Source of the DNA: a virus | Length of the DNA stretch: 48,676 nucleotides | Virus record (IMG/VR): IMGVR_UViG_3300037674_000223 | Coordinates: 1 to 48,676 of that record | Strand: one strand, 5' to 3' | In this document: in pieces, positions 3,079 to 17,712 of the stretch | Layout: every line of letters begins with the position of its first letter | Position numbering within the stretch: the stretch's first letter is position 1 | Translations under genes and position numbers: made by a program | Notes under the pieces: model-generated | Database searches by the model: none | Told to the model about the DNA's origin: nothing | Seen by the model: the letters and a program-made list of their open reading frames with translations, nothing else

Positions 3079-5004
3079 ATGGCATTTCAAGTATCACCAG
3101 GCGTTCTCGTTCAGGAGAAAGATTTAACAAGAATCATTCCCGCTGTATCAACATCAATTGGTGCCTTTGCTGGCGAGTTCAGAAAAGGTCCTTTAGATGA
3201 GGTTACATCAATCTCTAGTGAGCAAGAGTTAGTAACAGTTTTCGGCAAACCGGATTCAAATAATTTTGAATCTTTTTTTACAGCTGCAAACTTTTTATCT
3301 TACTCTAACGCATTAAGAGTTGTACGAGCACAAAATACTGGTTTAGCAAACGCTTCCGTTTCAGGAAGTTTGTTTGTGGTAAAGAACACACAAGACTATC
3401 AGGATAACTATTCTGGTGGAGCGGCTACAGTTGGAGAATGGGCAGCTAGAACAGCAGGAGCTTGGGGTAATACCTTAAAAGTTTCTGTATGTCACAGCGC
3501 AACAGGTTTTCAAGAAGACGCTAAAACAACAATCGCTGACACAGCTATGGCTGTTGGTCATACGACAGTAACATTAACATCTGGAACAGGCTTTAACGTA
3601 GGAGACATAGTTGAGTTTTCTAAAACAGCTGCAGGTTCAGATTATGATGGTTACAAATATAAAATAACAAGTATCGCAACAAACGATATTACATTTACAA
3701 GAGCAGACACAGGTCAAGGTGGATTACATATAGTTCCAGCTAATGGTGCAAACGTAAAGAGACTTTGGGAATACTATGACATGGTGTCAAGTGCTCCTGG
3801 AACATCTCCATTTGCAACTTCAAAAGCAGCTACTAACGATGAAATGCACGTGGTCGTGGTAGACGAAGATGGCGACATAACAGGAACACGTGGTGAAGTG
3901 TTAGAAGTTTATGATAAAGTATCAAAAGCTTCAGACGCAAAAACACCACAAGGAGATTCAAATTACTATGCAAACGTAGTTTACAATAGATCAAGTTATA
4001 TCTATTGGATGGATCACCATGCTTCTGGATCAAATTTTGGAACAGCAGCTAGTGGAATTACTTTCGCAGCTATTAATACACCAAAATCTGACAGTCTACA
4101 AGCAGGCGCTGACGGTTCAGCCGCTTCTACAGGAGAAATCAAAACAGCATACGAAATGTTTGAAGATTCTGAAACTGTGGACGTTGGTTTAATCATGGGC
4201 GGTAAATGTGACGCTACTAAAGTTGACGACTTAATCTCTATAGCAGAGAAAAGAAAAGACGCTATCGCATTCGTATCTCCAGAGAGATCAGATGTGGCTA
4301 ACGTTGCTTCTTCAATCACGCAAACACAAAACGTACTAGCATTTATGAACGGTATCCGTTCTTCATCTTACGTTGTGTTGGATAGTGGTTACAAGTATAT
4401 GTACGACAGATATAATGACGTATATAGATATGTACCATTAAATGGAGATATTGCAGGTCTAGCAGCTAGAACCGATATAATCGCAGATAGTTGGTGGTCA
4501 CCGGCAGGTCTTAACAGAGGTATTATCAGAGGTGCAGTTAAACTAGCATACAATCCAAGTAAAGCACAAAGAGACGAGTTATATAAAGCTCGTGTTAATC
4601 CTGTGGTAACTTTCCCAGGACAAGGCACAGTTCTTTTTGGTGACAAAACTGGATTAAGTGCTCCAAGTGCTTTTGATAGAATCAATGTTAGAAGATTGTT
4701 TATTATTTTAGAGAAGGCAATAGCAACTGCTTCTAAATATCAACTCTTTGAGTTCAATGATGAATTTACAAGAGCTAACTTTAGAAACATTGTAGAACCT
4801 TTTTTAAGAGAAGTACAAGGTAGACGAGGTCTAACAGACTTTATGGTAGTATGTGACGAAACAAATAACACAGGTGAAGTAATTGATAGAAATGAATTTA
4901 TTGCTGAGATATTTATTAAACCAGCAAGAAGTATCAACTTTATTACATTACAATTCATCGCAACACGGACTGGCGTTTCTTTTGAAGAAGTCGCAGGCGG
5001 TTAA
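3079..5004 (+). CDS. gp18: Tail sheath protein gp18
   Basis: Contractile tail sheath subunit, 641 residues (T4: 659). The N terminus (VSPGVLVQEKDLT, then STSIGAFAGEFRKGP) is the conserved start of phage sheath proteins. The C-terminal third (about 480-640), with FPGQGTVLFGDKT, INVRRLFIILEKAI and FEFNDEFTRANFR, is the domain packing on the tube and is the most conserved part. The middle is rich in Gly/Ala/Ser/Thr, as expected for the variable surface domain. A GAGGAG ribosome site and late promoter precede it, and gp19 follows after 23 bases. Confidence 0.96.
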   Translation: MAFQVSPGVLVQEKDLTRIIPAVSTSIGAFAGEFRKGPLDEVTSISSEQELVTVFGKPDSNNFESFFTAANFLSYSNALRVVRAQNTGLANASVSGSLFVVKNTQDYQDNYSGGAATVGEWAARTAGAWGNTLKVSVCHSATGFQEDAKTTIADTAMAVGHTTVTLTSGTGFNVGDIVEFSKTAAGSDYDGYKYKITSIATNDITFTRADTGQGGLHIVPANGANVKRLWEYYDMVSSAPGTSPFATSKAATNDEMHVVVVDEDGDITGTRGEVLEVYDKVSKASDAKTPQGDSNYYANVVYNRSSYIYWMDHHASGSNFGTAASGITFAAINTPKSDSLQAGADGSAASTGEIKTAYEMFEDSETVDVGLIMGGKCDATKVDDLISIAEKRKDAIAFVSPERSDVANVASSITQTQNVLAFMNGIRSSSYVVLDSGYKYMYDRYNDVYRYVPLNGDIAGLAARTDIIADSWWSPAGLNRGIIRGAVKLAYNPSKAQRDELYKARVNPVVTFPGQGTVLFGDKTGLSAPSAFDRINVRRLFIILEKAIATASKYQLFEFNDEFTRANFRNIVEPFLREVQGRRGLTDFMVVCDETNNTGEVIDRNEFIAEIFIKPARSINFITLQFIATRTGVSFEEVAGG

Positions 5005-14460: not shown

Positions 14461-15020
14461 TGTATTTAACTAATAACAATTGCGTTTCAATTTCAAAATT
14501 CAATCAAAACTATTGTAATAATATAATAGAAAATTCAGATAAATTAAGATTAAAAAAAGCCGCTATACAAGACGGCAATAATAGGAATAGAAGTTCCAAG
14601 GTTGCATGGATTAAGGAAAATAATCAATTATATAAAGATATGGAAGATGTTATCTTTAATCATAATGTAAAAGCTAATTGGAATTTTAATATAAAAGAAT
14701 TTGAACCCTTTCAGTATACAGTATACGAAGAAGGAGACCACTATGATTGGCATATAGATTCACATATTAAGCCTTACCCTAATGGTTTTATTAGAAAGAT
14801 AAGTTTTACTTTATGTTTAAATGAAGATTATGAGGGTGGAGAATTAGAAATAGCTAATTTAAATCCTAAAGGAATTGATAAGAATATAAAGTTTAAAGAT
14901 AAATTTACAACTGGTACAATTATAACCTTTCCATCATTTATGTGGCATAAAGTACATCCGGTGACCAAAGGAATAAGAAAAGTTTTGGTAGGTTGGATTG
15001 TAGGTCCACCTTTTGTGTAA
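14460..15020 (+). CDS. 2-oxoglutarate/Fe(II) dioxygenase (prolyl hydroxylase-like)
   Basis: A 186-residue double-stranded beta-helix dioxygenase. Iron ligands are His98 and Asp100 (YDWHIDSH) and a distal His163 in FMWHKVHPVTKG; Arg173 in GIRKVLVGW is in place to bind 2-oxoglutarate. The GGELEIAN strand is typical. Such genes are common in marine T4-like phages, where protein or nucleic-acid hydroxylation is suspected but the substrate is unproved. It overlaps both neighbours by a base (TAATG), so it is cotranslated with uvsY and uvsW. Confidence 0.88.
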   Translation: MYLTNNNCVSISKFNQNYCNNIIENSDKLRLKKAAIQDGNNRNRSSKVAWIKENNQLYKDMEDVIFNHNVKANWNFNIKEFEPFQYTVYEEGDHYDWHIDSHIKPYPNGFIRKISFTLCLNEDYEGGELEIANLNPKGIDKNIKFKDKFTTGTIITFPSFMWHKVHPVTKGIRKVLVGWIVGPPFV

Positions 15021-16516
15021 TGCCCGATATAAGATACATCATAGTAGACAAGGTAAACGAAGTTTATTTAAAGATAGAAGCTGACGCCTCTATACGTAGA
15101 GAGTTGTCAGAATATTTTTGCTTTGAAGTACCAGGTTATAAGTTTGTTCCTGCCTATAGAAACAGAGTATGGGATGGAAAGATAAGATTATTTTCTTATG
15201 CAACTGGTCAAATTTACGCCGGTTTATATCCTTATATACTTAAATGGTGTGATGATAATAAGATACAAGTAGTAGATGGTGCTAAAATAGTTGATACTAA
15301 AGTTGATTTAGAATTGGTAGATAAGTTTACAAAAGCACTTAAAGTACCTATGGAAATAAGAGATTATCAAAAGGAGGCCTTTATTCATGCAACACAAAAG
15401 AATAGATGTTTATTATTATCTCCAACAGCCTCTGGTAAATCACTTATAGTTTATATGTTAGTACGTTATAATATGATAAGACTAAAAGAACAAAACAAAA
15501 AGATACTTATTATAGTGCCAACAACATCATTGGTTGAACAACTACATAAAGATTTCAAAGATTATGGTTGGACACCAGAGAAATATGTACATAAGATATA
15601 TCAAGGATATGAAAAAGATACAGATAGAAATGTAGTTATATCTACATGGCAATCAATATATAATCAACCTAAAAAATGGTTTCAACAATTTGGTATGGTA
15701 ATGGGTGATGAAGCACACTTGTTTAAAGCAGTTTCACTTACAAAGATAATGACTAAATTAGAGAAGTGTAAATATAGAATAGGTCTTACAGGTACTTTAG
15801 ATGGTACAAAAACACATAAGTTAGTATTAGAAGGATTGTTTGGTACAGTAAACAAGGTAACTTCAACAACAGAATTACAAGAGAGTAAACAGTTAGCCGA
15901 TTTAAAAATTATATGTTTAGTATTACAACATGATAAAGATGTTAGACATATGTTAAAAGACAAGACGTACCAAGAAGAAATGGATTATTTGGTACGAAGT
16001 GAAAAAAGAAATAAGTATATAAGAAACTTAGCCTCTAGTTTACAAGGCAATACTTTATGTTTATTTCAATATGTAGAAAAACATGGAAAGGAGTTATATG
16101 AATCAATTAAAACAAAAGCTGTTGACAAACAAGTATTTTATGTCCACGGTGGAGTGGATACAGACGTTAGGGAAAAGATTAGAGAAATTACCGAAAAGTC
16201 TGACGGAGCTATTATCGTTGCAAGTTATGGGACTTTCAGTACAGGCATTAATATACGGAACTTGCATAACATTATTTTTGCTAGTCCTAGCAAGTCACGG
16301 ATAAGGAACTTACAATCTATTGGAAGAGGATTAAGATTAAAAGATAACAATTCAGCTGCGACTTTATACGATATAGCAGATGATATTAGTTATAAAGAAA
16401 AAGAAAATTATACACTACACCACTTCAGGGAAAGGATAAATATATACAATGATGAAGACTTTAATTATGAAATACACAATATAGATTTAAATACACCGAA
16501 AGATGGAACAAAGTAA
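15020..16516 (+). CDS. uvsW: RNA-DNA / recombination helicase UvsW
   Basis: Superfamily 2 helicase that unwinds R-loops, migrates branches and in T4 shuts off origin transcription. Walker A is SPTASGKS, motif II is GDEAHLF (T4: NDECHL), motif III is IGLTGTLDG, motif V is ASYGTFSTGINIRNLHN and motif VI is QSIGRGLRLK. The N-terminal DNA-binding part YFCFEVPGYKFVPAYRN..WDG mirrors T4. The ATG at 15020 overlaps the oxygenase stop and gives 498 residues (T4: about 500). An upstream in-frame ATG at 14993 would add nine residues unlike T4. Confidence 0.95.
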   Translation: MPDIRYIIVDKVNEVYLKIEADASIRRELSEYFCFEVPGYKFVPAYRNRVWDGKIRLFSYATGQIYAGLYPYILKWCDDNKIQVVDGAKIVDTKVDLELVDKFTKALKVPMEIRDYQKEAFIHATQKNRCLLLSPTASGKSLIVYMLVRYNMIRLKEQNKKILIIVPTTSLVEQLHKDFKDYGWTPEKYVHKIYQGYEKDTDRNVVISTWQSIYNQPKKWFQQFGMVMGDEAHLFKAVSLTKIMTKLEKCKYRIGLTGTLDGTKTHKLVLEGLFGTVNKVTSTTELQESKQLADLKIICLVLQHDKDVRHMLKDKTYQEEMDYLVRSEKRNKYIRNLASSLQGNTLCLFQYVEKHGKELYESIKTKAVDKQVFYVHGGVDTDVREKIREITEKSDGAIIVASYGTFSTGINIRNLHNIIFASPSKSRIRNLQSIGRGLRLKDNNSAATLYDIADDISYKEKENYTLHHFRERINIYNDEDFNYEIHNIDLNTPKDGTK

Positions 16517-16958
16517 AACAATAACCGAAAAAATAAAAATCATTAAGTTGGTTAATGGGGACGATATTGTTGCTGTTGTGGAAAATTCAAAGAGTCAAAT
16601 GGATACCACACATCAAACAATTTGTATTGATAAACCTTTACAGATAAAATACGTACCACAAATAACAATGCAAGGTTTCAAAGACTATATCGCATTGATA
16701 CGTTGGACGGCCTATACTAACGATAATCATATTACAATTCCAAAAGATAAGATAATGACTATTACAAACGCCAACGAGGCTATGAGTAAGAGTTATCTAG
16801 GTGTCGTTGATACATATGGTGATATTCCGTTGGCCAATGAAGGTGGAAAAAGACAGGCAATGATGATGAAGTTTTCTACCAAAGAAAACAGAAAGTTAAA
16901 TGAGATATTTGATGACAGATTTTATGATGAAGATGATGAGCCAGGAACTATACATTAA
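16503..16958 (+). CDS. Sm-like small protein (paralogue of 34183-34488)
   Basis: A 151-residue protein overlapping the end of uvsW by 14 bases. The N-terminal strand pattern IKIIKLVNGDDIVAVVEN resembles an Sm1 motif (hydrophobic, x, NGxxVxAxV), followed by KPLQIKYVPQI and HITIPKDKIMTI, then an acidic tail. The protein at 34183 repeats the same order (VKILRLSTGEDVIAKVGEN, then VTISKDKIVFM). A small beta-barrel that binds RNA or a replication protein is plausible. The Sm assignment is inference from pattern only. Confidence 0.6.
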   Translation: MEQSKTITEKIKIIKLVNGDDIVAVVENSKSQMDTTHQTICIDKPLQIKYVPQITMQGFKDYIALIRWTAYTNDNHITIPKDKIMTITNANEAMSKSYLGVVDTYGDIPLANEGGKRQAMMMKFSTKENRKLNEIFDDRFYDEDDEPGTIH

Positions 16959-16962
16959 TAAT

Positions 16963-17000
16963 CCCCCTAGCTGGAGGTCCTCTATCAACCGGCTACACCG
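16963..17000 (-). ncRNA. Candidate minus-strand small RNA divergent from gp55
   Basis: A GC-rich island in an AT-rich gap. Read on the minus strand from a sigma70-like promoter (17031-17004), it gives a transcript starting near 17000-16997 with CGG-TGTAG-CCG, then a CCTCC-AGCTA-GGGGG hairpin (16977-16963) followed by ATTATT, which would act as a terminator. The last stem pairs fully (one G-T) only on the minus strand. It would be about 40 bases, running toward the 3' end of the Sm-like gene. No other minus-strand gene exists in the window. Expression is a prediction. Confidence 0.4.
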
Positions 17001-17003
17001 TTC

Positions 17004-17031
17004 ATTATACATATTTTTCAGAAAAAGTCAA
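17004..17031 (-). promoter_or_regulatory. Minus-strand sigma70-like promoter
   Basis: On the minus strand, TTGACT (17031-17026), a 16-base spacer, then perfect TATAAT (17009-17004). It faces away from the gp55 promoter at 17087-17115 and is the only convincing minus-strand promoter noticed in the window. Confidence 0.5.
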
Positions 17032-17086
17032 TGCTGATTTAGCCTAAAACCGAAATTTTTTTTTGGTGTTTTACAACCTTAAAACA

Positions 17087-17115
17087 TTGACAAATTGAAC
17101 GAAAAGGTATATAGT
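17087..17115 (+). promoter_or_regulatory. Sigma70-like promoter of gp55
   Basis: TTGACA, 17-base spacer, TATAGT, then TATATT and the ATG at 17122. The predicted start (about 7 bases after the -10) falls on the start codon, so the message would be leaderless. An upstream in-frame TTG (17095) lies inside this promoter and cannot be the start of a message made from it. Confidence 0.75.
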
Positions 17116-17121
17116 TATATT

Positions 17122-17712
17122 ATGACTGCAAAATCAAAAACGAAGAAAGAACACTACGTTAATAACAAAGAGTTTTTGGAGGCGATGATAAAGTACAGAA
17201 AATCTGTACGAAAAGCAAAGAGAGAGAAACAAGATAAACCAGCAGTAGGAAACTACCTTGGATCGTGTTTTTTGAAGATTGCCAATCACCTTTCATATAG
17301 ACCTAATTTCATAAATTATACATTTAAAGATGACATGATTTCAGATGGTATAGAAAACTGTCTACAATACCTTGACAACTTTGATGGTAAAAAATCTAAA
17401 AATCCTTTCGCTTATTTTACTCAAATAATCTACTATGCTTTTATACGTAGAATACAAAAAGAGAAAAAACAAGTGACGATTAAACACAAACTTATTAGTA
17501 AATCAAATTTAGATGACTTTGCTCTTCAACCAGGTGACGATAGAGAATTTAGAAATCAAATGACAGAGTATTTACAAAAGAATTTACCTATGGATTCACA
17601 AGAGAAAATAGCTGAAGAAGTAGCAAAAAGTAAAAAGAAACGTAAGAAAAGGACAAGTAAGAATAGTTTAGATTATTTTTTTAAAAAAGATGAAGATAGC
17701 CCTATTAAATGA
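17122..17712 (+). CDS. gp55: Late sigma factor gp55
   Basis: Alternative sigma subunit that directs host RNA polymerase to TATAAATA promoters. The 196 residues compare with 185 in T4. The core (NYLGSCFLKIANHLSYRPNF, then DMISDGIENCLQYLDNFDGKKSKNPFAYFTQIIYYAFIRRIQKEKK) is the sigma region 2-like domain, in two helical segments. The tail is Lys-rich and ends near the clamp-binding position (SLDYFFKK). The ATG at 17122 is chosen because the promoter occupies the bases just upstream. gp47 begins inside its last 23 bases. Confidence 0.95.
   Translation: MTAKSKTKKEHYVNNKEFLEAMIKYRKSVRKAKREKQDKPAVGNYLGSCFLKIANHLSYRPNFINYTFKDDMISDGIENCLQYLDNFDGKKSKNPFAYFTQIIYYAFIRRIQKEKKQVTIKHKLISKSNLDDFALQPGDDREFRNQMTEYLQKNLPMDSQEKIAEEVAKSKKKRKKRTSKNSLDYFFKKDEDSPIK

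Follow-up and report, generated by a model that had tools for sequence, protein, structure and literature searches.

A conserved antisense promoter with an operator-like palindrome at its predicted start adjoins the Sm-like protein gene of Kyanoviridae phages

Operators that overlap the +1 of repressible promoters offer a palindromic site at which a factor binding as a dimer could prevent or adjust the start of transcription, and in phage T4 the origin ori(uvsY), also known as oriF, has a promoter near uvsY. CfrI, an antisense RNA of ~225 nt in the marine T4-like cyanophage S-PM2, lies at psbA and at a gene for a homing endonuclease (Millard et al. 2010, as summarised in PMC2984593 and PMC5931967). 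Cyanomyoviruses have early sigma-70 promoters of the TTGACA-17-TATAAT type, which serve unmodified host polymerase (PMC2984593, PMC3037559), while marine T4-like phages are without MotA and AsiA (PMC2984593). The cyanophage protein pMarR binds downstream of a start site (PMC9692554), and the antisense results in the available part of a P-HM2 infection study concern the host (PMC5082946). Here we describe a minus-strand promoter with a palindrome at its predicted start, placed immediately beyond a phage gene for an Sm-like protein (lsm). A literature search found no published description of the element, although a Syn9 transcriptome study may bear on it, and the combination of antisense promoter and palindrome is apparently undescribed.

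The window, by which we mean the whole stretch of 48,676 nucleotides analysed, is part of the genome of a marine T4-like phage and has the gene order uvsW (14993–16516), lsm (16503–16958, plus strand), an intergenic region, gp55 (the late sigma factor, 17122–17712, plus strand; phrog_234, E 1.4e-61) and gp47. The core order is the same in Mosig, HTVC008M, P-SSM2, P-SSM3, S-ShM2, S-SCSM1 and Syn9, all Kyanoviridae. The antisense element lies within the lsm–gp55 intergenic region, and the preliminary description read its sequence correctly: TTGACT-16-TATAAT is present on the minus strand at 17031–17004 (-35 at 17026–17031, -10 at 17004–17009) with a score of 11/12; it is the one strict minus-strand match (TTGACW-N15-18-TAnAnT) in the 48.7 kb; and it stands back-to-back with the gp55 promoter, TTGACA-17-TATAGT on the plus strand at 17087–17115. 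The -10 of that gp55 promoter ends 6 nt before the ATG (17110–17124) and the gp55 mRNA would be nearly leaderless; in pelagimyophage-type loci the following ATG comes 6 nt after the -10 in 64/79 and 7 nt after it in 13/79.

Promoter-like matches are not enriched in the window region, with 26 found and 22.8 expected from shuffles, and the significance of the promoter therefore rests on its conservation. About 400 loci were retrieved with gp55 or lsm queries, and a minus-strand promoter adjoins the lsm stop in 389 of the 401 related loci that carry both genes. Dinucleotide shuffles predict 3.6 occurrences of the pattern among 190 non-redundant intergenic regions, and 173 of these regions have it. 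The phages concerned are Kyanoviridae myoviruses of Pelagibacter, Prochlorococcus and Synechococcus. The -35 is TTGAC[A/T] in nearly all relatives; among 247 distinct sequences, counts that are conditional on a search pattern which itself demanded TTG[AC]C, 244 have a spacer of 16 or 17 nt and 246 one of 16–18 nt, and TGT or TGC follows 5 or 6 nt past the -10 in 244. Near-consensus -35 and -10 hexamers 16–18 nt apart are thus the rule, as in sigma-70-type promoters. Ten exceptions inspected by eye mostly keep a degenerate version, for example with a TTGCCA -35 or TGC in place of TGT. In Melnitz (L164) the spacer between -35 and -10 is ~11 nt shorter than in HTVC008M. The preliminary description had named a conservation pattern fitting a plus-strand terminator as an outcome that would speak against it; the fixed -35/-10 spacing favours a minus-strand promoter over a plus-strand terminator alone. 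On this comparative evidence the minus-strand sigma-70-type promoter is real and deeply conserved. A host origin was rejected, as a pattern scan of 84,980 bacterial and archaeal species (one genome per species) gave 23 scattered matches, none of them titled Pelagibacter, Prochlorococcus or Synechococcus.

An inverted repeat follows the -10 directly, at a distance of 0–1 nt, with TGT near its centre. In the window it reads GAACGG-TGTAG-CCGGTT on the minus strand (16987–17003), occurs as a single copy and spans the predicted +1, which the -10 spacing and the conserved TGT 5–6 nt past the -10 would place at the G of TGT (16996). Its arms covary. Across 42 distinct 5' arms the mean number of Watson-Crick pairs is 3.76 against 3.03 (sd 0.12) after permutation, and none of 1000 permutations in which the 3' arms were redealt reaches the observed pairing. 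The folding energy of the repeat corresponds to z of about -8 on the minus strand and -7.5 on the plus strand. A further palindrome, GAACGGTATCCGTTC at position 4347 of the window, is without the promoter arrangement, recurs in Mosig and was taken as coding sequence.

The preliminary description had named gp55, from which the promoter diverges, as one possible target beside the Sm-like gene or action in trans. A primary link to gp55 is not supported, for the promoter stays with lsm where tRNAs or open reading frames intervene. The predicted start lies ~10–50 nt past the lsm stop codon (16956–16958 in the window) in most loci, and the promoter points into lsm in nearly all of them. In 20 loci gp55 is more than 250 nt away, with a maximum of 961 nt. 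An ARAGORN scan places tRNA-Gly(GCC) between the element and gp55 in 6 of 10 loci, L005 has an Rfam tRNA match at this place too, and further loci carry other coding sequence in this position. As the distance to lsm is short while that to gp55 varies, the promoter belongs to lsm rather than to gp55. Its origin as a by-product of a bidirectional gp55 promoter was likewise rejected, since the element persists at lsm with 250–961 nt to gp55. The six tRNA loci (L008, L012, L014, L016, L017 and L020) are close relatives in which a terminator-like T-run stem precedes the tRNA; the equivalent position in the window, which is without the tRNA, is about 17065–17080. In 17 of 120 cyano-type sequences the spacer contains TTGTCAA, which is consistent with an interleaved gp55 -35, and therefore competition or mutual exclusion between the antisense and gp55 promoters may be possible in some cyanophages.

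The palindrome also occurs at other phage promoters. Away from lsm, a pattern scan of viral contigs found at least 35 additional copies, most of which stand before small conserved genes, and in several cyanophages nearly the same palindrome stands at the promoters of phrog_718, phrog_627, phrog_2848 and phrog_244. Palindromic sites number three in G004 and two each in Syn9, P-SSM3 and G012–G014; the second promoter of Syn9, whose palindrome is nearly the same, stands before a small ORF, and two of the three sites in S-ShM2 are identical, including an unusual TAAACT -10. A protein-based search gave 51 untruncated phrog_718 loci, and 50 of them have a palindromic promoter upstream of the gene. 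The phrog_718 product is 67 aa long (L766–L821) and the palindromic promoter usually lies about 45 nt before its ATG. Distant phrog_718 relatives in G005 and P-SSM3 are without a palindromic promoter. In seven genomes whose second site was located through the phrog_718 protein, the distance between lsm and phrog_718 palindromes averages 1.29 within genomes and 3.06 between them (exact p 0.0024), a test that, like all such within/between comparisons here, is inflated by shared ancestry. Two of the seven (G018 and G021) carry clearly different palindromes at the two sites. Larger sets agree with this result but carry a bias, some of their sites having been located through the similarity of the palindromes themselves, and we therefore rely on the seven-genome test. 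Only the lsm site was found in Mosig, HTVC008M, P-SSM2, S-SCSM1, AG-345-F15 and the window, and the evidence for a shared regulon thus does not extend to the window's own clade. By inspection, the -35 TTGAC of the palindromic promoter in some cyanophage contigs (L481, L484, L553 and L555) lies inside an upstream stem that is GC-rich and has a T-run behind it, which gives the look of a terminator merged with a promoter.

The gene into which the promoter reads belongs to phrog_471. Its product matches 3BY7 by profile (E 1.1e-6) and by fold (Foldseek target TM 0.80–0.86, from a model with mean pLDDT 65, which is moderate confidence), and on these two matches it is an Sm-like protein of the RNA-binding type. 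This protein, which is annotated elsewhere as 'methylamine utilization', is thus related to 3BY7. Synonymous conservation at the lsm 3' end is slight (0.70–0.75 against 0.61–0.71 elsewhere) and confounded by amino-acid composition, and a synonymous constraint there was not retained.

On these comparisons the element looks less like a small RNA acting by itself than like a small circuit of regulation. We give about an even chance to the reading that the element is a regulated sigma-70 antisense promoter of Kyanoviridae that reads into lsm and has an operator at +1. In this reading host RNA polymerase would start in the middle of the palindrome, ~10–50 nt past the lsm stop, and move towards lsm, while the palindrome would be a putative operator for a lineage-specific trans-acting factor that may also control a few small genes in some cyanophages. 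With the promoter active, antisense RNA and head-on polymerases would reduce or terminate uvsW–lsm expression, and occupation of the operator would release lsm. The effect on lsm could be exerted via antisense RNA, polymerase collision or a roadblock, between which the sequence does not discriminate. Comparison across genomes shows the promoter, its place at lsm, the covariation of the arms and the sharing of the palindrome with other promoters of the same genome; where transcription starts, the role as an operator, the timing and what happens to lsm are inferred. Against an operator, the arms vary widely between phages, which would be unpredicted unless the factor co-evolves. More tentatively, and with rather more doubt than conviction, the element may define a promoter class of Kyanoviridae that starts inside a lineage-specific palindrome read by a regulator, has antisense lsm as its near-universal target and forms a family-wide uvsW–lsm switch.

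Of the alternatives, the best surviving, which we nevertheless regard as unlikely, is that the element is a roadblock or insulator: polymerase sitting on the antisense promoter or departing from it would end uvsW–lsm transcription by head-on collision and so shield gp55, its RNA being inert. Roadblocking and head-on collision have been described (PMC10310618, PMC13082048), and the constant place just past the lsm stop, a promoter far better conserved than the RNA body and the lack of a universal intrinsic terminator on the antisense strand all fit such a function. However, by inspection, relatives of the L005 type also possess a plus-strand terminator-like T-run stem, and the presence of the same palindromic promoter at ordinary protein genes suggests regulation beyond insulation.

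The discrete structured small RNA that the preliminary description had proposed, which would be ~40 nt long and act in trans or on gp55, is an improbable reading. Its promoter is strong, the early transcribed segment is G/A-rich in cyano-type sequences, and the hairpin CCTCCAGCTAGGGGG followed by ATTATT is indeed present in the window (minus strand, 16963–16977), where an RNA from ~16996 to this end would be only about 40 nt; past it the promoter would read on into lsm. Conservation divides these features, as the -10 and -35 are kept in nearly all relatives but the terminator-like hairpin in close relatives only, and a terminator-like end 25–50 nt downstream occurs in only 14% of 191 representatives. 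The supposed structure of the RNA is not supported either: with its 5' arm preceding the predicted +1, to judge by the spacing, the first hairpin would not be transcribed whole and the RNA would hold only the 3' arm of the palindrome, while the window RNA, taken from the predicted +1, is no more stably folded than shuffled sequence (z +0.55). At Rfam gathering thresholds there is no match in the window and only a tRNA in eight relatives, and a defined, conserved transcript with an end, as for a CfrI-like antisense RNA, was not found. A minus-strand peptide was also rejected; an ATG or GTG stands at the lsm stop because lsm often ends in His-stop, and inspection shows that in many relatives this frame ends immediately (GTG TAG).

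By analogy with T4, the element might instead be a priming promoter for an R-loop replication origin, with the palindrome stabilising the open strand, but this is very improbable. The uvsY–uvsW–lsm–55 neighbourhood, the G-rich early transcribed segment of cyano-type sequences and an inverted repeat exactly at the start would suit an origin, yet the GC skew of the window does not switch at 17 kb, the detrended skew of Syn9 has its minimum at 102 kb and its maximum at 46 kb rather than at 123.7 kb, and the same promoter type precedes ordinary genes. There is similarly little to recommend a plus-strand feature, namely a hairpin in the lsm mRNA 3' UTR with a conserved ACA loop: the repeat does fold on the plus strand with nearly equal covariation, and wobble pairs do not decide the strand, as a 61:6 excess of G-T over A-C is gone against permuted arms and this indicator was discarded, but such a hairpin leaves unexplained the TTGAC/TAnnnT pair at 16–17 nt spacing, the fixed 0–1 nt between repeat and -10, and the occurrence of this module before other genes, where it is oriented in the sense direction.

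The antisense promoter represents a concrete cis-element for the question of how marine T4-like phages regulate early and middle transcription, and it links antisense transcription with a phage Sm-like protein that is uncharacterised. The lsm antisense site, phrog_718, phrog_627 and others constitute a candidate small cyanophage regulon that offers a route towards its regulator. If the proposed uvsW–lsm switch is true, it adjoins the gene of the late sigma factor. Set beside the described systems, the element resembles CfrI in that it would give an antisense transcript in a T4-like marine phage; CfrI was detected experimentally in one phage, whereas the lsm element is predicted from sequence, is nearly family-wide and has a palindromic start. 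It is of the same type as the cyanomyovirus early promoters, but antisense and with an inverted repeat fixed directly after the -10. The promoter in the uvsY–uvsW neighbourhood recalls T4 oriF by analogy, although orientation and promoter type differ and GC skew gives no support for an origin at the lsm element. pMarR, by contrast, is a protein of a T7-like phage, and the work on it concerned a host gene. Compared with operators that overlap +1, the palindrome at lsm is a putative operator whose arms differ between phages while its geometry is kept.
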